Shown here piece by piece: positions 40,135-52,811 of a DNA stretch of 64,000 nt. Under the pieces are notes generated by a model. The model did not search any database. It had not been told where the DNA came from and saw only the letters and a list, made by a program, of their open reading frames with translations. The stretch comes from Prevotella sp. E13-17 (GTDB lineage Bacteria; Bacteroidota; Bacteroidia; Bacteroidales; Bacteroidaceae), in assembly GCF_022024035.1 (NCBI RefSeq), contig NZ_CP091787.1, forward strand, positions 1,426,001 through 1,490,000, read 5' to 3'. Made by a program: the position numbers and the translations under genes. Within the stretch, counting starts at the first letter, position 1. Each line of letters starts with the position of its first letter.

Positions 40135-41250
40135 TTATAATTCGTTTTCTTTCATGCGTTCTGCGTTCTCTGCTACGGTCAAGGCGTCAATCATGGCTTG
40201 AATGTCGCCCCCCAGAAATCCTTGTAAATCGTGAGTAGTATAACCGATACGGTGGTCGGTGACACGGCCTTGTGGGAAGTTGTAGGTGCGGATCTTCGCC
40301 GAGCGGTCGCCAGTGCTGACCAATGTCTTGCGGCGACTTGCTATGTCGTCCATGTATTTCTGGTGTTCTTTGTCGTAGATGAAGGTGTAGAGACGGGAAA
40401 GTGCGCGTTCCTTATTCTTGGGTTGGTCGCGTGTCTCCGTACATTCAATCAGGATTTCCTCTGTCTCACCTGTATTGGGATTCTTCCACATATAGCGCAG
40501 GCGAACACCCGATTCTACCTTGTTGACGTTCTGACCGCCAGCACCGCTCGAGCGGAAGGTGTCCCATTTGATTTCGCCTTCATTGATATGAACCTCGAAT
40601 TTGTCGGCTTCTGGCAATACGGCAACTGTTGCAGCACTAGTCTGCATGCGTCCGTTAGACTCGGTGACGGGCACTCGCTGCACGCGGTGAACGCCCGATT
40701 CGTATTTCAGCGTGCCATATACGTCGGTACCACTTACGGCGAAGTCAATTTCCTTATACCCCCCCACAGCACCTTCGTTGAAGTCGGTGACGCTGAGTTG
40801 CCAACCTTTGGCCTCACAGTAGTTCTTGTACATCTTAAACAGATCCCCGGCAAATAGACAGGCTTCGTCGCCGCCAGTTCCTGCGCGAATCTCCATCTGC
40901 ACGTTCTTTGCATCCTCGGGGTCTTTAGGTATCAGGGCAATCTTGATTTCCTCTTCGAGTTGTGGCTGTAGCGCCTCGTTGGTTGACAGCTCTTCACGGG
41001 CCATCTCTTTCATTTCGGGGTCGTCTTCGTTGGCCAGTATATCCTTTGCCTCCTTGATGCTGTTTAGGCAGTTGATATAACGCTTGCGTGCGTCCATGAT
41101 GTCGCCCAGGTCTTTGTACTCTTTCGTCAGTTTCACGAATCGCTGTTGGTCTGCAATCACTGCAGGGTCAGTAATCAGAGTTGATACCTCTTCGAAGCGA
41201 CTTTCCAGTCCGTCCAGCTTTTGCAAAATGCTGTTTGTTGTTTCTGCCAT
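40135..41250 (-). CDS. prfA: Peptide chain release factor 1
   Basis: 371 aa. It ends translation at UAA and UAG. The stop-codon reading tripeptide is PVT (PxT type, in [12 protein letters not shown]) and the GGQ loop is [16 protein letters not shown], both diagnostic of RF1 rather than RF2. It heads the prfA-pyrF-HD-lpx block. TAACTTTG (41287-41280) on the minus strand, 30 nt before the start, is the likely -7 element, though the nearest TTTG is only 16 bp further. Confidence 0.96.
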
Positions 41251-41398
41251 TTTTATCTATACTTCTTTTAATTTGGGTGCAAAGTTACGAAAAAAGGTTG
41301 TAACAAAAGACGGAATTTGGAGAATTAACGCAGAATGACCGTAAATAAAAGGTAATCAAGGGAAAAACGGGGAAGTTCAGTTTTAGGCTGAATGCAAA

Positions 41399-41515
41399 TC
41401 AGTAGTCAGCCAATCGAAAATAGCTGATAGCATCAAGAGCCTGTTCTGCCTTATTGGTATCAGCAATCATCAGACCTCAGCCTTGCAGTGTCTGAATCTG
41501 CTGTGCTAGCGTCAT
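41399..41515 (-). pseudogene. Broken Abi-family (Abi_2) gene fragment
   Basis: Minus-strand frame from an ATG at 41515 reads MTLAQQIQTLQG, a TGA stop (41479-41477), then GLMIADTNKAEQALDAISYF and RLADY, and another TGA where Abi proteins often have Trp. The order matches the N terminus of Abi-type phage-exclusion proteins (AbiD/AbiF group). Two in-frame stops and the lack of the rest of the domain show decay. The gap 41251-41924 (674 bp) holds this fragment and the RNA candidate at 41700-41873. Confidence 0.6.
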
Positions 41516-41666
41516 TGCTTGTTAGGTATATCTATATACAAAAAATGTCCCGCTGGTACGCTGTTCTTATGGGAAGCGGGCGGGATTTGTCGGTGAAAAG
41601 ATAGTGCATTTTCTTGAATCTACAAACAATTCTGAAGATTTATTGTTGAAATACGAGTAAAAAGTA

Positions 41667-41695
41667 TTTGAAATCGAAAACTTTTCGTAATTTTG
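41667..41695 (+). promoter_or_regulatory. Promoter of the structured RNA candidate
   Basis: TTTG at 41667-41670 and TAATTTTG at 41688-41695, with a 17-bp spacer, a little short. It places transcription start near 41700, at the base of the predicted RNA fold. Confidence 0.55.
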
Positions 41696-41699
41696 CAGT

Positions 41700-41873
41700 G
41701 TGTTTTCGAAAGAGGCACAAGACATATTGCTCTATAGCTTCACAATCACCACCGCGAACGAAAGAGCAACAACTATTATAGGAGCTGCCCCCAATATGGG
41801 CGCAGATTTCCCATATATAGTTGTGGTTTGTGGTGAACCGTGAAGCGTATGGCGAAAGTCTGCGCCTCTTTTG
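41700..41873 (+). ncRNA. ssrS: Rod-like structured RNA, possible 6S RNA
   Basis: Nested complements form a long rod: AAAGAGGC (41709) with GCCTCTTT (41864); AGAC (41720) with GTCT (41858); GCTTCAC (41737) with GTGAAGC (41840); TCACCAC (41746) with GTGGTGA (41830); ACAACTAT (41769) with ATAGTTGT (41817); and a CTGC/GCAG hairpin at 41785-41805. Internal loops of 16-20 nt separate the stems, and TTTT follows the closing stem. Size (about 170 nt), closing stem and asymmetric bulges fit 6S RNA, which binds RNA polymerase. It could also be a 5' leader of the next gene, whose ATG is at 41925. Confidence 0.55.
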
Positions 41874-41924
41874 ATGGAAATTGCAAAGTATGGTTACTCA
41901 AAAACTAAGATTAAATACAGAACT

Positions 41925-43037
41925 ATGAAGAAGTTTGTATTATTACTGGCATTTGCCATTTGTAGCTCCTATGGTTTTGCACAGGAGCCAGTGCTCTCCT
42001 TCAATGGAGATTTGTATTTCATCCCAGGCTCCATGACTAAAGAAGGAGAGGCTTTCCTTGTGTCGGTGAACACTTTCGACAGGAAAGGTTTTACCATTTA
42101 TGACGGCGACTTTAACACGGTCAGGGATTTCACAGACCCTGCCATGGGGCAGCCTTATCAGGAGCGCGTCGTCACACTGACACGCGTTTGCGACCTCGGC
42201 AACAGTGGCGGATCGATTACAAGAGCAGCTGCAAGCGATGAATGGACGGTTGTGGACGACCAGACCAACGAATATACAACGAGTTCGACAATCAATAGCT
42301 TTGAGTTGTATTCCGACAACAACAGCTATCATTCTCGTCACCTCTATGTAAGCCAGACATTGTTCGACGATGACGATGATTTCGAATATGTGCGGTCAAG
42401 ACAAACCATTGTGCCCGTCAGCATGAAATATGCAGACTACGTCAAGGAGCATTCGACTGGCAATGACGGCAATATTCTCTCACCATCTTACGGCGACGAG
42501 AAGCTTGACTCCATCATGAGGGAAAGCGGAGCCGACAACTATGAGTGGTTTTGGGATGATGAAAGTGGCAAACGACTGCTCAGGCTTTACAAACATGAGC
42601 ATTATGGTGGAATCTATACCGAAGGAGTGGAGATTGCGACATTAGATGGAACGGTCAAGGCATTCCTGCCGGGCATATCCTACATCTCTTCAGCCTATTA
42701 TTTCAGAGGGAAATGCTATGTCCAGGGATATGGCAGCGACAACAGCCGCGTATTATATCTTTTAGGAAACGATGCAACAGGGATTAGGGAAGTAAGCCGT
42801 TCCAAGGCTGATTTCTCAATAAGAAGAGTGGGTAGTAATATAGTCTTTGACAATGAAACCGGCGGACAGTTGACGCTTGTAGTTTCTGCTATGGACGGCA
42901 AGGTGGTAAGGTCGCTGAATGCAAAACGAGGCAGTAATCAGCTCTCTGTCAGCGGGCTAATGAGTGGTGTTTATAACGTCACGCTCTATCAGCAGTCCAG
43001 CCCTGTAAAGTCTTCAAAAATCATCATAAAGAACTAG
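41925..43037 (+). CDS. Secreted protein with T9SS-type C-terminal domain
   Basis: The frame opens at 41871, but the ATG at 41925 starts a signal peptide (KKFVLLLAFAICSSYGFAQ), giving 370 aa. The body is beta-rich with acidic patches and no known catalytic motif. The last ~75 residues have the form of a type A sorting domain: strand GSNIVFDNETGGQLTLVVSA, then GKVVRSLNA, LMSGVYNVTLYQ and a short basic end. Such domains send proteins through the type IX system to the cell surface. The function of the body is not recognised. Confidence 0.75.
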   Translation: MKKFVLLLAFAICSSYGFAQEPVLSFNGDLYFIPGSMTKEGEAFLVSVNTFDRKGFTIYDGDFNTVRDFTDPAMGQPYQERVVTLTRVCDLGNSGGSITRAAASDEWTVVDDQTNEYTTSSTINSFELYSDNNSYHSRHLYVSQTLFDDDDDFEYVRSRQTIVPVSMKYADYVKEHSTGNDGNILSPSYGDEKLDSIMRESGADNYEWFWDDESGKRLLRLYKHEHYGGIYTEGVEIATLDGTVKAFLPGISYISSAYYFRGKCYVQGYGSDNSRVLYLLGNDATGIREVSRSKADFSIRRVGSNIVFDNETGGQLTLVVSAMDGKVVRSLNAKRGSNQLSVSGLMSGVYNVTLYQQSSPVKSSKIIIKN

Positions 43038-43058
43038 TGGCGTCCGATAAAAACACTT

Positions 43059-43172
43059 CAAGAGGCCGCTTGGGCGTACACGAACAATGGGTATATTCCA
43101 GAAACAGATACGTGTACTTTGAGAATGGGAAACTATCAGTCATTCGGGACTGAAGTGACTTACTATAAATAA
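43059..43172 (+). other. Coding-like fragment after the T9SS gene
   Basis: One frame reads 37 codons (EAAWAYTNNGYIPETDTC, LRMGNYQSFGTEVTYYK) to a TAA with no start codon. It resembles the C-terminal end of a secreted protein, so it may be gene debris. Apart from this and the promoter at 43425-43456, I see nothing in the gap 43038-43481. Confidence 0.25.
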
Positions 43173-43424
43173 GAAAAGGTATAGGAGCATAGAATGCACC
43201 AACATTAGAAAAAAGGCAAGACTGCTAGCAATGGTATCGCCTTGGATTATGCGCATGTAAGCTCTTCACTCATATGTTGGTAAACCATCTCCTACGCTTT
43301 ATAAATCTAATCTAAGGTGTGGGAGATTTCTAATAACATTAGTATTGGTTTGTATCATAATTATTGCATTTTACTCTCATAATTAATGTTTGTGGGTTAT
43401 TAAATAAATATTTTTGCGAAAATA

Positions 43425-43456
43425 TTTGTTCGATTGAAAACTGTTGCTTATCTTTG
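43425..43456 (+). promoter_or_regulatory. Promoter of the type IV restriction cassette
   Basis: TTTG at 43425-43428, a 20-bp spacer and TATCTTTG at 43449-43456. Transcription would start about 20 nt before the ATG at 43482. Confidence 0.8.
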
Positions 43457-43481
43457 CACCCATAATCGAAACAGCAAAAAT

Positions 43482-44528
43482 ATGATGCAACTTAACGAGA
43501 AACTATTGAAAGAGCTTCCACGTATATTGAATATGACGAATGGGGCTATATCGGAGAAGTCTAACATTGCTATATCAACATGGTATAGAATAGTCCAGAC
43601 TCCATCCAAAATATCAGTACATCAACTAATTGATCTGGCCAATGGCCTGCATATTCCAGTAAGTCGATTCTTTTCATCTGAATACTTTGATGAGATAGGT
43701 AAGCGTGAGGATTATATCGTATGTGACAGTTTTAAAGAATGCTATTATAATGGAGAAGCGATTCAAAAAGTTGTCAGATCAGGCGTTGTCTCTTCATATA
43801 AAGATGCTGCTACTTCCGTGGGGGTTCATCCTAACCGTGTTAAAGAATCACTTCTTGCGGTACATCGTCTTCCTGTTACTCGCCTACTTAATTTCTGCAA
43901 CGCATTCACTCTGAATTTTTTTGAATTTGTAGTTGACCCTAATCTCCAAACAGATTCAGGCGTACTTGATAGTCGTTTGGGTATCCCACTATTGGTAAAG
44001 CCATATAAACATAATTTAGCAGAAGAATATCTTTCGGAAATGAAGAAGATGAAGGCTCAGCTCCTAAATGCCCAATTGGAACTTGATGCAGTACGTCGTA
44101 ATCAAAGTAACAATAATGATATGGGAAAAAATGTAATCAAAGCACCTGTGACTTGGTTCTTTGGTATCCGTTTCTTATATGCATATAAAGACATGAGCGA
44201 GCCAGTACGCGCATGGTTTCAAATGCTCGTAAAGAAAGAACGGCCTCATGAAACATTCTTCTTCGCTAAAACCGGTAATGAATACAACACCATATGTTTC
44301 TATACAGATGATGGCATTAAGTTTTTCGAAGCCGGATGCCAACCTCCACTATCTGATTGTTTGTTCCGTGAAAGGATAATGGTAGGAAAGATTTGTGCAC
44401 ATACTCTAGATGACAATCCAGAAACTATAGAATTCTCTGCTGACTTGGTTGCCAATCTCAGAGAGGACAGAAAGGACACTGCGGACTTTGCATTGTTCAG
44501 GAAAGAAATGATACAAAAGTTTAGTTAA
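43482..44528 (+). CDS. Double-HTH regulator-like protein of the restriction cassette
   Basis: The promoter at 43425-43456 overlaps the longer open frame (from 43434), so the ATG at 43482 is the start (348 aa). Two helix-turn-helix-like segments are visible: residues about 8-62 (NGAISEKSNIAISTWYRIVQ) and about 95-150 (YKDAATSVGVHPNRVKESLL). A coiled coil follows (about 185-210, EEYLSEMKKMKAQLLNAQL), then a C-terminal domain of about 115 residues with no recognised fold. It is A+T-rich like the next three genes and lies 86 bp before mcrB, so control of the cassette is the likely role. Confidence 0.65.
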   Translation: MMQLNEKLLKELPRILNMTNGAISEKSNIAISTWYRIVQTPSKISVHQLIDLANGLHIPVSRFFSSEYFDEIGKREDYIVCDSFKECYYNGEAIQKVVRSGVVSSYKDAATSVGVHPNRVKESLLAVHRLPVTRLLNFCNAFTLNFFEFVVDPNLQTDSGVLDSRLGIPLLVKPYKHNLAEEYLSEMKKMKAQLLNAQLELDAVRRNQSNNNDMGKNVIKAPVTWFFGIRFLYAYKDMSEPVRAWFQMLVKKERPHETFFFAKTGNEYNTICFYTDDGIKFFEAGCQPPLSDCLFRERIMVGKICAHTLDDNPETIEFSADLVANLREDRKDTADFALFRKEMIQKFS

Positions 44529-44614
44529 GGCGTAATTGCGAAATGGTGTGATATTCATAGTTATATATGATATAATCTCAGTATAAGAAATCTTAAATAG
44601 GCAACATTATAAAG

Positions 44615-46588
44615 ATGAAAGAAAACAATAATGCGGGCGAATTGGTTAATGGAAAATTCCAATTTGTTTCTTTAGGGAAGAATCTGCTTAACCAAAAGGC
44701 ATGGTTGCTCATTATTAAATTTATGAGAGAGGAACTTGAACACGCATTGGCCTCTCAAGGTGTGGATAGTATTTCCTGCTTAGAGGACACGTCCTCATTC
44801 CACATTTGCAAAGAAAACAGTGAGGAAAATAGTAAAGGAGATATAATCTTTCATGTTACTAATTCCGTCATAAAAGATTTGAAATCCCACAACATTAGAG
44901 AAATATTTGAAGAACCAGAGATCCCCATTGTAACCATTGGAAATTTAAGAATCAACTTTTGGGTAAATATGACTATTTTCCCCAAAAAAGTAGATTTTGT
45001 TGTTATCAAAGAAGTTGCAGAGCATTATTCTAATTGGATATTGGATGTTACCCCCGATTCTTTTACTTGTTCGTATTCAATTCCGTTCTTTCTATTTGTT
45101 TCATGTTACATCCAGGACAAACATTATATTGATACAACTTTTCGTGATTTGCGAGACTTTTTTTCTCCTGAGAGATATTCAACATTTTCAGATTTCGAAA
45201 AACGAGTTCTAAGACCTGTTAAAGAGGATTATGATAGGGCTTATGAAAAAGGAGAAAGTGAGTTTACATTTACGTATAAGACAAAAGACAAAACCCCTAT
45301 TGGGAAAAAGGGTTCTGCGTTAATAAACATAGAACTAATCAACGCAGCGCCTAAAAAACGACGTGAACCCCATATTAACTATAGCGCATTACAAGCAATG
45401 GAAAAGAACAATAAGTTTAACAAGTACATACAATTGTTAGAGGTAAACAAGAATCTTATCTTGACTGGTGCACCAGGAACAGGAAAAACATTCTTGGCAA
45501 GAGAAATAGCAAAGGCCATGGGGTGTATGGAGGAACAAATTGGTTTTATACAGTTCCACCCAAACTATGACTATACTGATTTTATTGAAGGGTTGAGGCC
45601 TATCTCTGATAAAAATGGAAATATCGGCTTCAAGAGGCAAAATGGGGCATTCAAAGAATTCTGCAAACTAGCTATTAGCCAATGCGTTCAACCAACAAAA
45701 ACAGAGTCGGAGGCAGTGCTGCAGAAATTCAAAATAATGCTTAGAAAGAAAGGGAGAATAGAAATAAGAGGTATCTATTTTATGATAGATGAAGGGGAAA
45801 CAATACACTTCATCTATCATCGTACCAGTTATGTTCTACGGGACAAAGACCTTTTAGAATATATTAGTGACAAAGATAACTGCCTCTATAACGCTTTTAC
45901 TAAGTTAGTGGGAGATTATGCTGTTGCCAATTATTTTGTTCCAACTAATCTAAAGAATGAAGACATAAAGAAATTCGTATTTGTCATCGATGAAATTAAC
46001 CGTGGTGAAATAAACAAGATATTTGGGGAGGCATTTTCCTCTATAGATTCCGGCTACCGTGGCGAGAAAGGTAAGGTGCAAACTCAATACCAGAATATGA
46101 TTGATAATGACGATGTGTTTAAGGATGGCTTCTACGTCCCAGAAAATGTCTATATCATTGGTACGATGAATGACATTGACCGCAGTGTGGAGAGTATGGA
46201 CTTTGCAATGCGCCGTCGTTTTGCATTTGTAGAAGTAACAACAGAAGAGAGTTATCAGAATATGATTGCAGAAAGTAATGATTATGATAAAAACGAAAAG
46301 GTGGAAATCAAGAAGAGAATGTCAGCCTTGAACAAATCCATTCTCATGCCAGAACTCAAGCTGGGCGAAGCTTACCAAATTGGTGCAGCATATTTCCGCA
46401 AATACCTTAACTATAAACATCTGGGAATGGAGCAGGCCTTCAAAATGTTGTGGAACTATCATTTGAAAGGACTCCTCTTTGAATACCTACGAGGTAATCA
46501 GAATGCAAAAGCCTATTTGGATGAATTGGAAAAGGCTTATAACAAAAAGCATGAAACGAATGATGAAACTGATAAAGACAACGGATAA
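44615..46588 (+). CDS. mcrB: McrB-like AAA+ GTPase with Rep_3-like N-terminal domain
   Basis: 657 aa. Walker A GAPGTGKT (285-292), Walker B FVFVIDEINRGEINK, and the McrB sensor-type MNDIDRSVESMDFAMRRRF place it in the McrB branch of AAA+ motors, which use GTP to drive McrC. An insert of about 100 residues lies between Walker A and B. The N terminus (about 15-245) does not look like the McrB methyl-reader domain; it resembles the two winged helices of Rep_3 plasmid initiators, most clearly FRDLRDFFSPE, STFSDFEKRVLRPVKEDYDR and the closing strand pair. It overlaps mcrC by about 29 bp. Confidence 0.85.
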   Translation: MKENNNAGELVNGKFQFVSLGKNLLNQKAWLLIIKFMREELEHALASQGVDSISCLEDTSSFHICKENSEENSKGDIIFHVTNSVIKDLKSHNIREIFEEPEIPIVTIGNLRINFWVNMTIFPKKVDFVVIKEVAEHYSNWILDVTPDSFTCSYSIPFFLFVSCYIQDKHYIDTTFRDLRDFFSPERYSTFSDFEKRVLRPVKEDYDRAYEKGESEFTFTYKTKDKTPIGKKGSALINIELINAAPKKRREPHINYSALQAMEKNNKFNKYIQLLEVNKNLILTGAPGTGKTFLAREIAKAMGCMEEQIGFIQFHPNYDYTDFIEGLRPISDKNGNIGFKRQNGAFKEFCKLAISQCVQPTKTESEAVLQKFKIMLRKKGRIEIRGIYFMIDEGETIHFIYHRTSYVLRDKDLLEYISDKDNCLYNAFTKLVGDYAVANYFVPTNLKNEDIKKFVFVIDEINRGEINKIFGEAFSSIDSGYRGEKGKVQTQYQNMIDNDDVFKDGFYVPENVYIIGTMNDIDRSVESMDFAMRRRFAFVEVTTEESYQNMIAESNDYDKNEKVEIKKRMSALNKSILMPELKLGEAYQIGAAYFRKYLNYKHLGMEQAFKMLWNYHLKGLLFEYLRGNQNAKAYLDELEKAYNKKHETNDETDKDNG

Positions 46589-47900
46589 CAACGGAAGGGG
46601 TGAACCTTTCGACGCTGCTTTGCACTTGGGGAACTTGAAAAAGTTGTCTGCAAAACCTCTGTGCGAGCTTGATCTTGCTGAACATCCCAACTTGCTGATA
46701 TTCCCTTCAGATTTCAAAGTCAATGGTGATGACATCGGCAATCAGCACATCTTTACAATAGACGAGAATCGTCTTTTGACAGGAAATATCATGGGATTCA
46801 TCGGTTATAACAACACACAGGTTAGCATTCGTTCACGTTTCGCCACGAATGATACTAATGACTACTTTCTGCACTACATGCTCCAGCGTGTTTTCGCTAT
46901 CAATCTATTTGATCTCAAGTTTGGAACTAACAATGAGGGGGTATTCAATTTCCTCATCTATCTCTTCCCGGAATTTTTAAAGCGTGCTATACGTCAAGGT
47001 GTCTATAAAGAATACCAAACGAGAAATTACAATGATGCTAACGTGAAAGGAAGGATAGATATTGCTAGGCATATCCGTCAAAACATTTCTTTTACTGGGA
47101 AAATAGCATACACAACAAGAGAATATTCAACTGACAACCATGTTACCCAACTTGTTCGGCATACTATTGAATATCTAGCCGTCCATCCTTTGGGTAGCAA
47201 TGTCCTCTATAACGATGAGGAAACTCGTAATGCAGTAAGCGGAATATGTCAAGCAACGCCAACATATAATCGTAAAGAACTTCGGAGTGTCATCAATTGC
47301 AACCTCCGGCCTTTAAGCCACCCATTTTTCATAGAATACCGTAACTTGCAACTTCTCTGCTTGCAAATACTTCAACATGAAGAAATAAGGTATGGTAACG
47401 ATAATAATAATCAAATATATGGCATCCTTTATGACGGTGCATGGTTGTGGGAAGAGTATTTAAATACCGTGTTAAGGGATATTGGGTTTCTGCATCCTAA
47501 AAACAAAATAGGTGAAGGTGGAATACATATATTCACAGACAAAGTTGGCCGTGAGAAAGCGATGCCTGATTATCATAGGTCAGACATAGTGCTTGATGCA
47601 AAATACAAGCGATATTCAGACTGGAGTGCAGTGTCACGCGATGACAGGAACCAATTAATAGCCTATATGCATTTGTATAATACAGTAAATAGCGGCTTTA
47701 TAGTGCCACTGGAAAATTCTGACATTAAAATGACAAGGTCTCTTAGTGGTCGTGGAGGGACAATGTCAATTATTGGAATGAATGTTTCTACAATCTGCGA
47801 CAATTTTAAAGATTTCTGTTCGCATATGGCAAAGGAAGAAAAGTTGCTTAAAGAGAAAATCGCTCAGATTTGTGATTGTAGCCGTATAGAACACACGTAA
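46560..47900 (+). CDS. mcrC: McrC-like nuclease subunit
   Basis: The frame is open from 46479 inside mcrB, but the ATG pair at 46560-46565 is the likely start, giving 447 aa and a 29-bp overlap. A beta-rich N-terminal half (FIGYNNTQVSIRSRF) is followed by the C-terminal PD-(D/E)xK nuclease: MPDYHRSDIVLDAKYK with D337 and the D346-A-K348 site. McrC is the nuclease subunit that stimulates McrB and cuts DNA carrying modified cytosine or other marks. The key residues are present. Confidence 0.87.
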   Translation: MMKLIKTTDNNGRGEPFDAALHLGNLKKLSAKPLCELDLAEHPNLLIFPSDFKVNGDDIGNQHIFTIDENRLLTGNIMGFIGYNNTQVSIRSRFATNDTNDYFLHYMLQRVFAINLFDLKFGTNNEGVFNFLIYLFPEFLKRAIRQGVYKEYQTRNYNDANVKGRIDIARHIRQNISFTGKIAYTTREYSTDNHVTQLVRHTIEYLAVHPLGSNVLYNDEETRNAVSGICQATPTYNRKELRSVINCNLRPLSHPFFIEYRNLQLLCLQILQHEEIRYGNDNNNQIYGILYDGAWLWEEYLNTVLRDIGFLHPKNKIGEGGIHIFTDKVGREKAMPDYHRSDIVLDAKYKRYSDWSAVSRDDRNQLIAYMHLYNTVNSGFIVPLENSDIKMTRSLSGRGGTMSIIGMNVSTICDNFKDFCSHMAKEEKLLKEKIAQICDCSRIEHT

Positions 47901-47986
47901 AGAAATAGAGGCAACTAAAAATAGTAGGAACTGAAAACCATTTATTGTATAAAATGGTGACAAAAGAGATTATTAACAAAAAATGA

Positions 47987-49054
47987 ATGATTATGAATAA
48001 TCCAACACGCACAACAAACAGACTTCACTTTGAAGATTTTCCTTGGCAACGTTTCGAAGAGCTGGTTTTTGAAATAGTTTACAGAAAATATAAATGGGGT
48101 GAACTTTCTCCAATAGGTCAAAAGGGGAAAGATGGCGGAGTAGACATTTGGGGTGTTGACACGGAAGAAACTACTTGGTACATTCAATGTAAGAATCATC
48201 AGTCTTTCACAAAGGCAGACGCACAGGCTGCAATTGACAAGATTGTTGGCAATTACGAAATTGCCAAGAGCTGTATGCTGCTCATTGCTCTTGCTTGCAA
48301 CATTACTACTGATACACTCCAATTCATAAAATCATATAGTGAGGAAAGAGGATTCAACGGAAGTGATGTGTGGGTTGGGACGAAACTTGAAACGATGCTT
48401 TATAGTGACTATAAAGATTTGCTATATAAGTTTTTTGGTATAGAGACAGAGCACAATAGGAACATTAAAAAAGTTGTTAACGGAAACAAGGTGAGGCAGG
48501 AAGTCGAAAAGATATTGCTGCAGAAAGTCAATTGGACACCAGAGATAAGAATGGAAATAGCCAGAGATCCTTCAAAACAATTCAGATTTGAAAAGGTTGT
48601 TATACGTTCTGTTGATGATGTTGATGATTCCTATGGTGAGAATGCCAGCTATTGTGAGATCTGTCCTTATCAATTAACTGACGTTGGTATTGAGTTCCTG
48701 GATTTATATTGGGACAATTACAGAATAGCAATTGACATAGATACTAAATGTTGGAGAAGAATAAAGGACGATGACAATTTGCAGGAAAACGAATTTGACA
48801 TACGTGCTGAGCATGTGGCTCTCCTTCCATATTATTGTATTATAAGCATTATGGAGAAAGGAGATGATTATTCTGACTATCCTGTTCTAATCTGTGGATT
48901 TGAGTTTAATAACACTCCGTTTTTACGCTACTATTATAAACACAAGGCATCAAAAGTCGATTTAGTTGAGGGGAAACCATTAAGTATTTCAGATTTATCC
49001 ATGCTAATAGATGAGATTGAAAAGGAATATGTTGATGATATCAGTAATACCTGA
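47987..49054 (+). CDS. Mrr-like restriction endonuclease
   Basis: 355 aa. The N-terminal domain (about 14-125) is a PD-(D/E)xK nuclease of the Mrr type: Glu in FEELVFEIVYRKY (24-25), D53 in KGKDGGVDIWG and Q67-x-K69 in WYIQCKNH. Residues 130-355 form a second domain, beta-rich and acidic, not recognised. It follows mcrC by 86 bp on the same strand with similar A+T-rich DNA, so it probably belongs to the cassette as a second nuclease. Confidence 0.75.
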   Translation: MIMNNPTRTTNRLHFEDFPWQRFEELVFEIVYRKYKWGELSPIGQKGKDGGVDIWGVDTEETTWYIQCKNHQSFTKADAQAAIDKIVGNYEIAKSCMLLIALACNITTDTLQFIKSYSEERGFNGSDVWVGTKLETMLYSDYKDLLYKFFGIETEHNRNIKKVVNGNKVRQEVEKILLQKVNWTPEIRMEIARDPSKQFRFEKVVIRSVDDVDDSYGENASYCEICPYQLTDVGIEFLDLYWDNYRIAIDIDTKCWRRIKDDDNLQENEFDIRAEHVALLPYYCIISIMEKGDDYSDYPVLICGFEFNNTPFLRYYYKHKASKVDLVEGKPLSISDLSMLIDEIEKEYVDDISNT

Positions 49055-49058
49055 AAAC

Positions 49059-49684
49059 TATTTTTCAGAATCAACACTCAGCCATCTGAAGCCACAGCAA
49101 GGCTTGTTAGAGCGTTACCAATGTCGTGCGATTGATGTGACGCTGGCTGCCAAGTTGACGCTAACGTATGGCAAGTATCATCTTGCGTTGCTTCACAGGC
49201 TGCTAGCTATGAGCGAGGAGCAGACAACGTATCAGCAGGCAGAGCAACAGTCGGGCAATGATGCGCTCGACCTTAGTCGCTTCGCTTGCGAAGAATCAGA
49301 TGACCATTTTCCATTCGTCGCCAGCGGACTTCTTGCGTCCCTATGGTAGCAAGCGACCTGAGGTCGAGCGTATGCACACACAAGAGGAAAGTACAGATGA
49401 ATCTATCGCCACATATAGGGAGTTCAAACGGCTCTTAGAGGAATATGCCGACGAATACTTTGTGCCAAGCGTGGTGGAGGAGTTCTGCAAGAGGGTGTAT
49501 GCTCTTAGGATTATGTTTGCCCCTTGGCTTACGCCGTACCCCCGATTAACGGGGGGGCTCAAAGGTACCAGCAAGGCAGGATAGATTACGACACCTTTTG
49601 CCAGGAATTCCAAGAACTTAGTTCTTAAGACTCGCTACGTTCATATAAGCGGCAAAGCCGAGCGGGACGAACGGTAAGCGCACA
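49059..49684 (+). pseudogene. Truncated and interrupted copy 1 of an unknown gene
   Basis: The frame YFSESTLSHLKPQQGL...EEQTTYQQ (49059-49238) matches copy 2 (50729 onward) almost throughout. It then departs for about 327 bp, and the match resumes at 49566 with YQQGRIDYDTFCQEFQELSS and a stop at 49626-49628. The 44-bp block at 49622-49665 is identical to one after copy 2. The inserted part holds the inverted repeat CGCTCGACCT/AGGTCGAGCG (49264 and 49361), an ORF-like stretch, and a CCCCCG/CGGGGG hairpin (49539-49555). The 5' end is missing, cut by the Mrr-like gene end at 49054. Further debris follows up to 49743. Confidence 0.55.
49622..49665 (+). repeat. 44-bp direct repeat, left copy
   Basis: Identical over 44 bp to 50956-50999, starting TTCTTAAGACTCGCTACG and ending GCCGAGCGG. 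It lies about 80 bp left of the zeta-toxin pair. Confidence 0.85.
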
Positions 49685-49743
49685 CCCCTCAACGGCAGAC
49701 GGCTCAGAATGTATATCGCCTCGATGCGCGAGGTGGTGGATTT

Positions 49744-50352
49744 CTACAAGTCTTTAGGATTTAAATCGTTGAATGACTGTTCAAATTGTTGCTTGAACCA
49801 CAATGGTGGGTTGTCTTCAATTTTGTGAATACGGCTCTTCGCGATGTGCAGGGCGACAATATGGCCATAGTCTGAGTTCCCATCAACAAAAGTCAGATTC
49901 TCGAATATGTGCAGATGCTGCTTGGCCTTTGCAAGACCCTCTGTGAAGTTGAAACGTATCACTTCGTCTGTTACATCATGCCCGCCAGTTTGCGCTCTTA
50001 ACTTTACTCTGCTAACGCTTTCATCTTCTGAAAGCAGTCCAAAATAGCATAAGGAAATTTTGAACTGTGCCGCCTTGAACTCATTTACCATGTTGACTAC
50101 CATATCGCTGGAAAAATTGGTCTCGAAAGCGAAATCTGTTCTATCCTCTAATGCTTTCGCCTTCTGTTTTTCCAATTCTGAAGCTACAGTGCCGCTAACC
50201 CAGCGGTCAGGCCAGTCAGGGTGTTCTCTGCGTAGATTCAGCATGAGTTTGTCGCCGTCGAAGGAATGTGTGCTTACGTAGAGTGGACACAAGCGGCTTT
50301 TCCCTGCTCCATTTGGACCGGCAATGATGGTGAGTTCAGGGCGACGTTCCAT
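49744..50352 (-). CDS. Zeta-toxin-like kinase
   Basis: 202 aa. P-loop GPNGAGKS (12-19), the DGD near 32-34, and FETN (76-79) match the zeta-toxin/UDP-sugar kinase family, which phosphorylates UDP-N-acetylglucosamine and so blocks wall synthesis. Residues after about 110 are less typical. Its start overlaps the stop of the next-upstream gene by 1 bp (TAATG), so the two are translated together. The pair is enclosed by direct repeats. Confidence 0.8.
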   Translation of the reverse strand: MERRPELTIIAGPNGAGKSRLCPLYVSTHSFDGDKLMLNLRREHPDWPDRWVSGTVASELEKQKAKALEDRTDFAFETNFSSDMVVNMVNEFKAAQFKISLCYFGLLSEDESVSRVKLRAQTGGHDVTDEVIRFNFTEGLAKAKQHLHIFENLTFVDGNSDYGHIVALHIAKSRIHKIEDNPPLWFKQQFEQSFNDLNPKDL

Positions 50353-50633
50353 TATCGTGCAATAAGATAGGAATAACGTCCCTGGCCAGGTTGCGCTGTG
50401 CGATGAAGCACGTGATATGTACGTGTCTTGCGGTCAAGGCTCACGCGATCCTCGCTGCCGTCAGGGTTTGCAAGGTAAATATTTCCCTCTTTATCGAAAA
50501 AAGGTACAGAAACACCTTGCTGCCATGCCTCTAAGTAGATTTTCTCCACTTCTTGACGCACAGCCTCGTTCACCTCCTTGACGGTCTTTCCGTTGGGCAG
50601 TTCAATATTTTCCAGTTCCTTATATGTGCACAT
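50352..50633 (-). CDS. Small partner protein, probable antitoxin
   Basis: 93 aa, acidic in the first half (ELPNGKTVKEVNEAVRQEVEKIYLEAW), then a beta-rich basic half (YLANPDGSEDRVSLDRKTRTYHVL). It precedes the zeta-like kinase with a TAATG overlap. Antitoxins of zeta proteins are small helical partners; the match to epsilon is not clear, so the role comes from gene order. Confidence 0.6.
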   Translation of the reverse strand: MCTYKELENIELPNGKTVKEVNEAVRQEVEKIYLEAWQQGVSVPFFDKEGNIYLANPDGSEDRVSLDRKTRTYHVLHRTAQPGQGRYSYLIAR

Positions 50634-50653
50634 AAAAACACTTTCGTTGTTGT

Positions 50654-50962
50654 TTGGTCACAAAATTACTAATTTTTCTTGAGAACAGAGGAATATTCGG
50701 CGGAAATTACCAAAATTTAATAAAAAAATACTTCTCTGAAACAACGCTCAATCACTTTAAACCCCAACAGGGATTGACAGAGCGTTATCAACGACGTGCC
50801 ATTGATGTGACGCTGGCTGCCAAGTTGACGCTGACGTATGGCAAGTATCATCTGGCTATGCTTCACAGACAGTTGGCCATGAGCGAGGAACAGACAACGT
50901 ATCAGCAGGGCAGGATAAACTATGCGATGTTCTGCCTCGAATATCTGGAACTCAATTCTTAA
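50654..50962 (+). CDS. Unknown protein, copy 2 of the duplicated gene
   Basis: 102 aa if the ATG at 50654 is used. The part from 50729 (YFSETTLNHFKPQQGLTERY to YLELNS) is the clear homologue of copy 1 and is mostly helical (RAIDVTLAAKLTLTYGKYHLAM). The first 25 codons are unlike copy 1. The 44-bp repeat at 50956-50999 overlaps its stop. No family was recognised; it may be a fragment too. Confidence 0.45.
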   Translation: MVTKLLIFLENRGIFGGNYQNLIKKYFSETTLNHFKPQQGLTERYQRRAIDVTLAAKLTLTYGKYHLAMLHRQLAMSEEQTTYQQGRINYAMFCLEYLELNS

Positions 50963-50999
50963 GACTCGCTACGTTCATATAAGCGGCAAAGCCGAGCGG
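50956..50999 (+). repeat. 44-bp direct repeat, right copy
   Basis: Identical over 44 bp to 49622-49665. Together with the surrounding ~180-bp homology the two copies enclose the zeta-toxin pair. Confidence 0.85.
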
Positions 51000-51090
51000 T
51001 ACCTTTACGCATGATAATGGACTACAAAAGCGGCTGGGTTGTTCATCATCGGGTGTTCTGTTCTTGGTCGGGATAGGAACGGTTTCGCAC

Positions 51091-51350
51091 TGTCATAGTG
51101 CTGCTTTCGTCTTGTTATAGTTTCGCTTTTGCGTTGTCATAGCTTTACTTTTGATGTCCGTCCAGCCCCTAGAAGTGGCGCATCCAGCCCCTGGAACGGG
51201 TCGTTTTAGCCCCTGGATACGGTCCTTCTAAGGGCTGGGTGTAGAGCATCCAGGGGCTAGACCAGAAATGATAGCTTCGGTTTTAGACTTTAGAAACGCC
51301 TCTTCTAGACTTTAGAATACGTGCATTTAGACTTAAAAACGACCTTCTCT
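51091..51350. repeat. 22-bp periodic degenerate array
   Basis: An AG anchor recurs with A at 51097, 51119, 51141, 51164, 51186, 51208, 51230, 51252, 51273, then 51285, 51307 and 51329. Most steps are 22 bp. The core changes along the array: TGTCATAG (three units), CCAGCCCCTGG-like (five units, two in reversed sense), then TAGACTTTAGAA (three units). Each core is followed by about 10 bp that differ between units. 22 is not a multiple of three, so it is not coding. The gap 50963-51355 holds this array and nothing else recognised. Confidence 0.7.
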
Positions 51351-51355
51351 GAATT

Positions 51356-51571
51356 CTAATCCCTTACTCCACAGTCTATTTTTACTTGGCAGTAGGCGTT
51401 TTTCTTGGTTTTTCGATGATGTCGTTGTAGCCATAGGCTGTTTGTTGGTTGTACTTCAGAAAAAAGGCAAACTAGTTTCCCTTTTTCTGAAGCACGATTG
51501 ACAGACAGATGAGCTTGTAGCTCATCAACAACAATATCAGCGGCTTTTATGAGGTTTTTGTTATTCAACAA
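51356..51571 (-). CDS. Small ORF beside the 22-bp array
   Basis: 71 aa from an ATG at 51571. The N-terminal half has a helix (NLIKAADIVVDELQAHLSV) and the rest is basic. It lies just past the purM terminator (51582-51622) and directly abuts the array on its 3' side. No family was recognised and it may not be expressed. Confidence 0.3.
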   Translation of the reverse strand: MLNNKNLIKAADIVVDELQAHLSVNRASEKGKLVCLFSEVQPTNSLWLQRHHRKTKKNAYCQVKIDCGVRD

Positions 51572-51581
51572 GGTGTTCTAT

Positions 51582-51622
51582 AAAAACAAAAAAAGCAGAC
51601 TCTCCAAATGGTAGCCTGCTTT
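51582..51622 (-). terminator. Terminator of the purM operon
   Basis: On the minus strand AAAGCAGGCT and AGTCTGCTTT form a 10-bp stem with one mismatch (51592-51622), followed by TTTTTTTGTTTT. It lies about 25 bp past the purM stop. Confidence 0.8.
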
Positions 51623-51647
51623 CTTTAATTGAGGGGAGATTCCTCAT

Positions 51648-52811
51648 TTAGTAATTAAATTCTCCAAATTCGCTCTTGATGGTGAGACTCTTCTTGCCTT
51701 CTTCGATGTGACCCACAATCTGTGCATCGATGTTGAAAGATTTAGAGAGTTCGATAACTTTTTGGGCAACCTCTGGGCGAACATAGATTTCCATGCGATG
51801 ACCCATGTTGAATACTTGATACATCTCCTTCCAATCGGTGCCGGAACATTCGTGAATGGCACGGAAAAGTGGTGGCACGGGGAACATGTTGTCCTTGATG
51901 ACGCGACAGTTTTCGCTGACAAAATGTAGTACCTTGGTCTGAGCACCACCAGTGCAGTGCACCATGCCGTGGATTTCGGGACGCAGCTCGTCGAGCAGCT
52001 TCTTGATGACGGGAGCATAGGTGCGGGTGGGCGAGAGCACCAACTGACCAGCATTGACAGGAGAACCGTCAACGCTGTCTGTGAGCTTATATTTTCCGCT
52101 GTAAACCAACTCGTCGGGCACTGCGTGGTCAAAACTTTCGGGGTAGTTCTCTGCCAGATATTTGGCAAATACGTCATGACGTGCCGAGGTGAGTCCGTTG
52201 CTGCCCATACCGCCATTGTAGCGTTTCTCATAGGTTGCCTGACCTGTTGACGAGAGACCAACGATGACGTCGCCAGGACGGATGTTGGCATTGTCAATGA
52301 CATCGTTGCGCTTCATGCGGCAGGTCACGGTAGAGTCCACAATGATGGTGCGTACCAAGTCGCCCACATCGGCTGTCTCGCCACCAGTGGGGTAGATGCC
52401 AATGCCCATCTCGCGCAGCTCGGACAGCAATTCGTCCGTACCATTTATGATGGCCGAGATGACTTCACCCGGCACCAACATCTTGTTGCGTCCGATGGTA
52501 GAAGAAACGAGAATGTTATCGACGGCACCTACGCAAAGAAGGTCGTCGGTGTTCATCACGATGGCATCCTGCGCAATACCTTTCCATACCGACAGGTCGC
52601 CCGTTTCTTTCCAGTACATGTATGCCAGTGAAGACTTAGTGCCAGCACCGTCGGCATGCATGATGTTACAATACTCGGGGTCACCACCCAGAATGTCTGG
52701 GATAATCTTACAGAAGGCTTGAGGAAAAATACCCTTGTCAATGTTCTTGATGGCGTTGTGTACGTCCTCTTTTGCGGCACTTACTCCGCGTTGCATGTAA
52801 CGATTGTTCAT
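51648..52811 (-). CDS. purM: Phosphoribosylformylglycinamidine cyclo-ligase
   Basis: 387 aa, longer than the ~345 of E. coli but typical of Bacteroidetes. It makes aminoimidazole ribotide in purine synthesis using ATP. HADGAGTKSSLAYMYWKETG is the N-terminal phosphate site, AQDAIVMNTDDLLCVGA and GGETADVGDLVRTI are further AIR synthase signatures, and HCTGGAQTKVLHF lies in the C-terminal half. It is last in the purC-to-purM block. Confidence 0.93.
   Translation of the reverse strand: MNNRYMQRGVSAAKEDVHNAIKNIDKGIFPQAFCKIIPDILGGDPEYCNIMHADGAGTKSSLAYMYWKETGDLSVWKGIAQDAIVMNTDDLLCVGAVDNILVSSTIGRNKMLVPGEVISAIINGTDELLSELREMGIGIYPTGGETADVGDLVRTIIVDSTVTCRMKRNDVIDNANIRPGDVIVGLSSTGQATYEKRYNGGMGSNGLTSARHDVFAKYLAENYPESFDHAVPDELVYSGKYKLTDSVDGSPVNAGQLVLSPTRTYAPVIKKLLDELRPEIHGMVHCTGGAQTKVLHFVSENCRVIKDNMFPVPPLFRAIHECSGTDWKEMYQVFNMGHRMEIYVRPEVAQKVIELSKSFNIDAQIVGHIEEGKKSLTIKSEFGEFNY

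Follow-up and report, generated by a model that had tools for sequence, protein, structure and literature searches.

A Rep_3-related N terminus on an McrB-type motor followed by McrC, in Prevotella sp. E13-17

Why would the motor of a restriction system carry an N terminus that resembles a plasmid replication initiator? The question is raised by a gene at 44615-46588 of the window, which is the whole 64,000-nucleotide stretch analysed here and corresponds to positions 1426001-1490000 of the 3.45 Mb single-contig genome of Prevotella sp. E13-17. It encodes an McrB-type AAA+ motor whose N terminus is akin to the Rep_3 family of plasmid initiators, and mcrC comes next. The explanation favoured here, with a rough probability of 0.5, is a type IV-like McrBC system that takes its specificity from an exchangeable module, a tandem winged-helix domain with a Rep_3 initiator as its ancestor.

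The preliminary description had recognised an McrB-type core in this gene, and this is borne out. The motor extends from about residue 256 (AAA_5 in Pfam), matches E. coli McrB structures (6hz4, E 4.1e-40), and carries Walker A and B motifs together with NxxD (Table 1), a motif that marks McrB clades (PMC11090510). The adjoining McrC matches PF10117 (E 3.1e-48 in Pfam) and has a PD-(D/E)xK nuclease motif, PDYHRSDIVLDAKYK.

Within the N terminus, the relationship to initiators is clearest in the second half. Rep3_C (PF21205) is the second winged helix (WH2) of Rep_3 initiators. Residues 1-262 alone score 23.3 bits against this Pfam family (cut-off 21.1), while the whole protein stays under the cut-off with 18.8 bits. 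At looser thresholds Rep3_C is also matched by 16 of 16 N termini in one homologue alignment and by 6 of 6 in another. Rep_3 open reading frames (ORFs) were gathered independently through PF01051, so that the comparison with them is not circular. A hidden Markov model (HMM) of 27 such ORFs gives 54.8 bits for the N terminus of the window protein, and one of 20 ORFs, from which the nearest lineage was excluded, gives 52.0 bits; the highest scores among 2000 shuffles are 6.7 and 8.4 bits, respectively. With hhalign, the N terminus matches the Rep_3 profiles at 98.1% and 97.9%, against a maximum of 1.6% among 40 column-shuffled decoys. Judged from these profiles, the homology of WH2 to Rep_3 initiators is firm. 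Of eight tblastn matches (E <= 10) among 72,556 plasmid records, seven are annotated as replication initiation protein, with weak E values of 0.03 to 8. A profile search that covered 399 genomes of the family gave 12 matches. One is the window itself and one a divergent McrB that scores 195 bits; the other ten are initiator-like ORFs, 383-508 codons long, that stand alone. PHROG adds phrog_4402, a replication-initiation family, at a weak E of 0.0064. A likeness to Rep_3 that arose by chance or is general to winged helices, with no shared ancestry, is hard to reconcile with scores so far above those of shuffles and decoys, with Rep3_C matches in both N-terminal subfamilies, and with the annotation of the plasmid-record matches; it is considered barely credible.

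Wider searches added little. The N-terminal profile of six members found one locus (L090) in genome contigs, and scans of genome contigs with one profile and of viral contigs with two did not confirm relatives. Besides the window, an order-level profile search gave five weak matches, of which L004 alone looks initiator-like by eye, two are DNA polymerase I-like, and the rest are apparently unrelated. Across 395 genomes of the phylum, 25 have a PF21205 match at E <= 0.01; 26 loci were tried and 24 gave an ORF, one of which (L111) has a P-loop, with a match of 26 positions and 18.4 bits that was taken as chance. PDB searches with residues 1-250 as a single sequence gave no match at E <= 10, and with the N-terminal profile only two chance-like ones (E 0.34 and 0.56).

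The first half (WH1) falls in register with Rep_3 WH1 once the alignment is anchored on WH2; PF01051, the WH1 family, is absent both from the Pfam matches of the protein at E <= 1 and from the whole genome. Across residues 12-245, an AlphaFold model of the N terminus, built from an alignment free of Rep_3 sequences, resembles RepE, pi and RctB; its best matches in the fold comparison were initiators, and the predicted fold is the tandem winged helix of Rep_3 initiators. The model and the WH2 statistics together uphold the earlier claim that residues from about 15 to 245 resemble these tandem domains. A full-length model was discarded (mean predicted local distance difference test score 44.5, mostly below 50 in residues 1-292). 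When the two types of N terminus, which are 38-39% identical, are compared, the densest invariant run (S192-E195, R197, L199, P201-K203, D205, D207) falls in the modelled helix 191-211, which was aligned by eye, via a Rep_3 ORF, with the RepE segment DFRRRFLQ. In initiators, winged helices contact iteron base triplets in the major groove (PMC4980987). This crowding of invariant positions into the putative recognition helix favours retained DNA recognition.

Would such recognition concern sequence or modification? What would have told against the preliminary description, a known modified-base reader in place of a Rep_3 match, is not what Pfam shows: at E <= 1 it lists Rep3_C as the sole family for this N terminus. 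DUF3578, YTH-like, EVE and ADAM are not listed at that threshold, in a Pfam copy that was not checked for each model, and neither is the DpnI-type winged helix (wH). A modification-dependent type IV enzyme would nonetheless have precedents. Reading of N6-methyladenine (6mA) by wH domains is established, McrBC prototypes target modified DNA, and proteins with an N-terminal domain, a wH and an NTPase (NTD-wH-NTPase), mostly paired with McrC-like partners, have been catalogued as putative, uncharacterised type IV systems (all in PMC11037411). The winged helices could recognise methylation or some other base modification in the manner of the DpnI-type wH, their initiator ancestry being incidental. 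With Rep3_C alone in Pfam and with initiators as the best matches of the model, this is regarded as possible but doubtful. Since the head would read DNA under this alternative as well as under the sequence-leaning explanation, a DNA reader of some kind is likely.

This type of N terminus is rare. A search for McrB proteins that share it gave, apart from the window's own, 18 protein clusters, comprising 15 homologues of the main type (82-90% identity) and three of a second type. Relatives of the motor alone were taken as the best 120 of at least 8000 scored proteins, and the N terminus could be cut off by a Walker A pattern in 119 of 121 motor proteins. Among the matches listed, these fall into N-terminal groups of 59, 18 (Rep-like), 15, 5, 3, 2, 1 and 1, while 15 of the 119 have fewer than 40 residues before the motor and may be truncated gene calls. 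The Rep_3 HMM gives 32-68 bits for the 18 Rep-like proteins and at most 4.5 for the others. The window protein and the second type (P0017-P0019) share 38-40% identity in the N terminus and 78-89% in the C-terminal half of the motor, a half in which five relatives with a different N terminus are still 70-77% identical. As close relatives of the motor carry different N termini or almost none, the module looks exchangeable. In those with fewer than 40 N-terminal residues (P0025, P0031, P0038-P0041 and others), the gene calls may be truncated, or the reader may be a separate protein.

The motor has a further variable segment, an insert between Walker A and B, which varies independently of the N terminus: within the same 119 proteins, inserts of three groups accompany the 19 Rep-like N termini (in 10, 7 and 2 proteins), in a rough grouping with boundaries set by pattern. 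It is conceivable that this insert is the reader and that the N-terminal module serves as a scaffold or non-specific DNA clamp. The McrBC census holds that inserts in the GTPase domain likely encode specificity domains (PMC11090510), and several insert groups are found among the motor relatives. Within the main type, however, the Rep-like N terminus remains 83-91% identical despite a change of insert, as expected for a module with its own job, and this alternative is thought unlikely.

Several observations, in addition to that view of the inserts, weigh against an initiator-derived DNA reader. The WH1 half alone is below significance in profile comparison with Rep_3, tblastn of the window N terminus found no match in phages, and the divergent N terminus found none in the plasmid records. 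The isoelectric point (pI) is 5.2-7.0 in 19 of 19 McrB N termini versus 7.7-9.6 in 27 of 27 Rep_3 ORFs. The net charge of the aligned region has a median of -5.5 in six N termini versus +7 in the 27 ORFs; that of WH2 is about 0 versus +3, the difference lying mostly outside WH2. The acidic pI pulls against a plain iteron binder. Near mcrB, a search for iterons gave nothing convincing: there is a single 15-nt pair, at a spacing of 108 nt, in 43000-44700, and none in 46550-48000. The nearest stand-alone initiator lineage has no convincing set either, since only some of its loci are preceded by a tandem 22-nt pair; because of this inconsistency, no target is proposed. The acidity of the module, set against basic initiators, would also suit a module that meets a protein, pairing through WH1 with the initiator of an incoming plasmid and so sensing or poisoning replication; initiators dimerise and use one domain for oligomerisation (PMC4980987). 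Conservation is highest in the DNA-recognition helix of WH2, not in WH1, and such a protein partner is judged improbable.

The Rep_3 lineage nearest to the McrB N terminus is chromosomal and belongs to the same genus (L011-L018, L045, L048, L052, L054 and L057). It does not share a contig with prfA in three genomes that consist of two contigs (G443, G908 and G861), and it is perhaps a second-chromosome initiator. As regards avoidance by the host, PF01051 is unmatched in the window genome and has no match over the cut-off in that of the divergent homologue (G609). This says little, as only 33 of 150 genomes of the genus have a PF01051 match.

For the favoured system with an initiator-derived specificity module, the following course may be proposed. 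The winged-helix domains would bind double-stranded DNA at preferred sites and load the McrB ring there; the loaded ring would then translocate, and McrC would cleave. Because no part of the module is more conserved than the recognition helix of WH2, a constant target carried by DNA is probable. The first candidate is an iteron-like sequence on plasmids that enter the cell, the second a modified base. An McrB-type motor needs more than one loading, and iteron sites lying side by side would suit it. In its most specific form, the captured initiator head would recognise the iteron array of an incoming plasmid and load McrB for cutting by McrC, with no need of DNA modification; this version is possible but less likely than not. 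The kinship of the head with plasmid initiators suggests, short of showing it, a defence in which plasmids are located through their origins. Should the head have kept the ability to read origin-like DNA, the system would represent origin-targeting anti-plasmid restriction, a principle distinct from the sensing of base modification, and plasmids would be recognised through an element, the origin, that is hard for them to lose. Even without origin reading, an initiator fold would have been recruited as an exchangeable McrB module. The motor lineage has two specificity positions, N terminus and insert, each of which varies independently of the other, so that swaps could test which module chooses the target.

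The system lies in a 10.4 kb block between prfA and purM (window 41250-51648). In 24 of 29 loci of relatives (60 genomes searched), purM is found within about 760 bases of prfA; three of the remaining five loci have full flanks, with purM absent. The interval reads as a place where a defence-like block was inserted. The divergent homologue comes from a metagenome-assembled genome of Bacteroidaceae, the same family, from buffalo rumen. The McrC beside it is 75.8% identical to that of the window, and the genes upstream of the two mcrB genes are related (34.7% identity, E 4e-38); a helix-turn-helix was recognised in the window's upstream gene by eye only, with no match in Pfam. The Mrr and zeta-toxin-like genes downstream (Table 1) were not found in the 14 kb stretch around the divergent homologue. 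The zeta-toxin-like gene and the small gene preceding it probably form a toxin-antitoxin-like pair. A 186-nt direct repeat occurs at 49054-49239 and 50724-50909 (83% identical); only these two copies were found in the genome, and Rfam gave no match. A peptide reading similar to that of the repeat follows mcrC at the divergent locus L021 (3443-3910, by eye). Further upstream in the block, the ORF at 41871-43037 (+) has what by eye resembles a C-terminal sorting segment of type IX secretion.

Table 1. Features of the mcrBC locus and its neighbours, in window coordinates
Feature	Residues	Position	Strand	Remarks
Upstream regulator-like gene		43434..44528	+	Counterpart precedes divergent mcrB
mcrB-like gene		44615..46588	+	657 aa; Rep_3-like N terminus, then McrB-type AAA+ motor; from ORF, AAA_5, Rep3_C and McrB structures
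WH1-like half	~20-145	44672..45049	+	In register with Rep_3 WH1; model resembles RepE from residue 12
WH2 half, Rep3_C	~150-245	45062..45349	+	PF21205, 23.3 bits on fragment; hhalign 98%
WH2 recognition-helix candidate	191-211	45185..45247	+	Modelled helix; invariant columns of two alignments
Walker A, GAPGTGKT	285-292	45467..45490	+	
Variable motor insert between Walker A and B	~351-451	45665..45967	+	Possible second specificity module
Walker B region, IDEINRGE	458-465	45986..46009	+	
NxxD McrB signature	519-522	46169..46180	+	Within TMNDIDR at 517
mcrC gene		46551..47900	+	Overlaps mcrB end; ORF opens at 46479; start in 46551-46563 guessed
McrC catalytic motif, PD...DAK		47565..47609	+	
Mrr_cat gene		47987-49054	+	Directly behind mcrC; 27.9 bits, cut-off 21 (Pfam)
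Zeta-toxin-like gene		49744-50633	-	PF06414, 25.6 bits, cut-off 22.3 (Pfam)

The system shares with McrBC of E. coli an AAA+ motor with Walker A, Walker B and NxxD, and an McrC neighbour with PF10117 and PD...DAK. It differs in the Rep_3-like N terminus, in which Pfam recognises no modified-base reader, and in the extra insert of the motor. The WH2 profile match and the tandem winged-helix model are shared with Rep_3 initiators of the RepE, pi and TrfA type. Unlike these, the window protein is not a stand-alone initiator beside an iteron array: it is fused to an AAA+ restriction motor, is acidic, has no convincing iterons alongside, and is encoded on a 3.45 Mb single contig that lacks a PF01051 match. 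Rep proteins were described in 2014 as having no AAA+ motor (PMC4081077). The NTD-wH-NTPase systems of PMC11037411 are alike in having an uncharacterised N-terminal part, a winged helix, an McrB-like NTPase and an McrC partner. There, in contrast, the search had been for a wH that reads 6mA like DpnI, and the available part of that paper mentions no relation to Rep_3; the comparison is by description, and the two sets may overlap. No mention of an initiator-derived McrB head was found in searches of open-licence papers, and the words 'winged', 'Rep_3' and 'plasmid' are absent from the accessible text of the McrBC census (PMC11090510). McrB-like motors that bear a winged helix and neighbour McrC have already been listed as putative 6mA-dependent systems; the initiator-derived head appears to be new.
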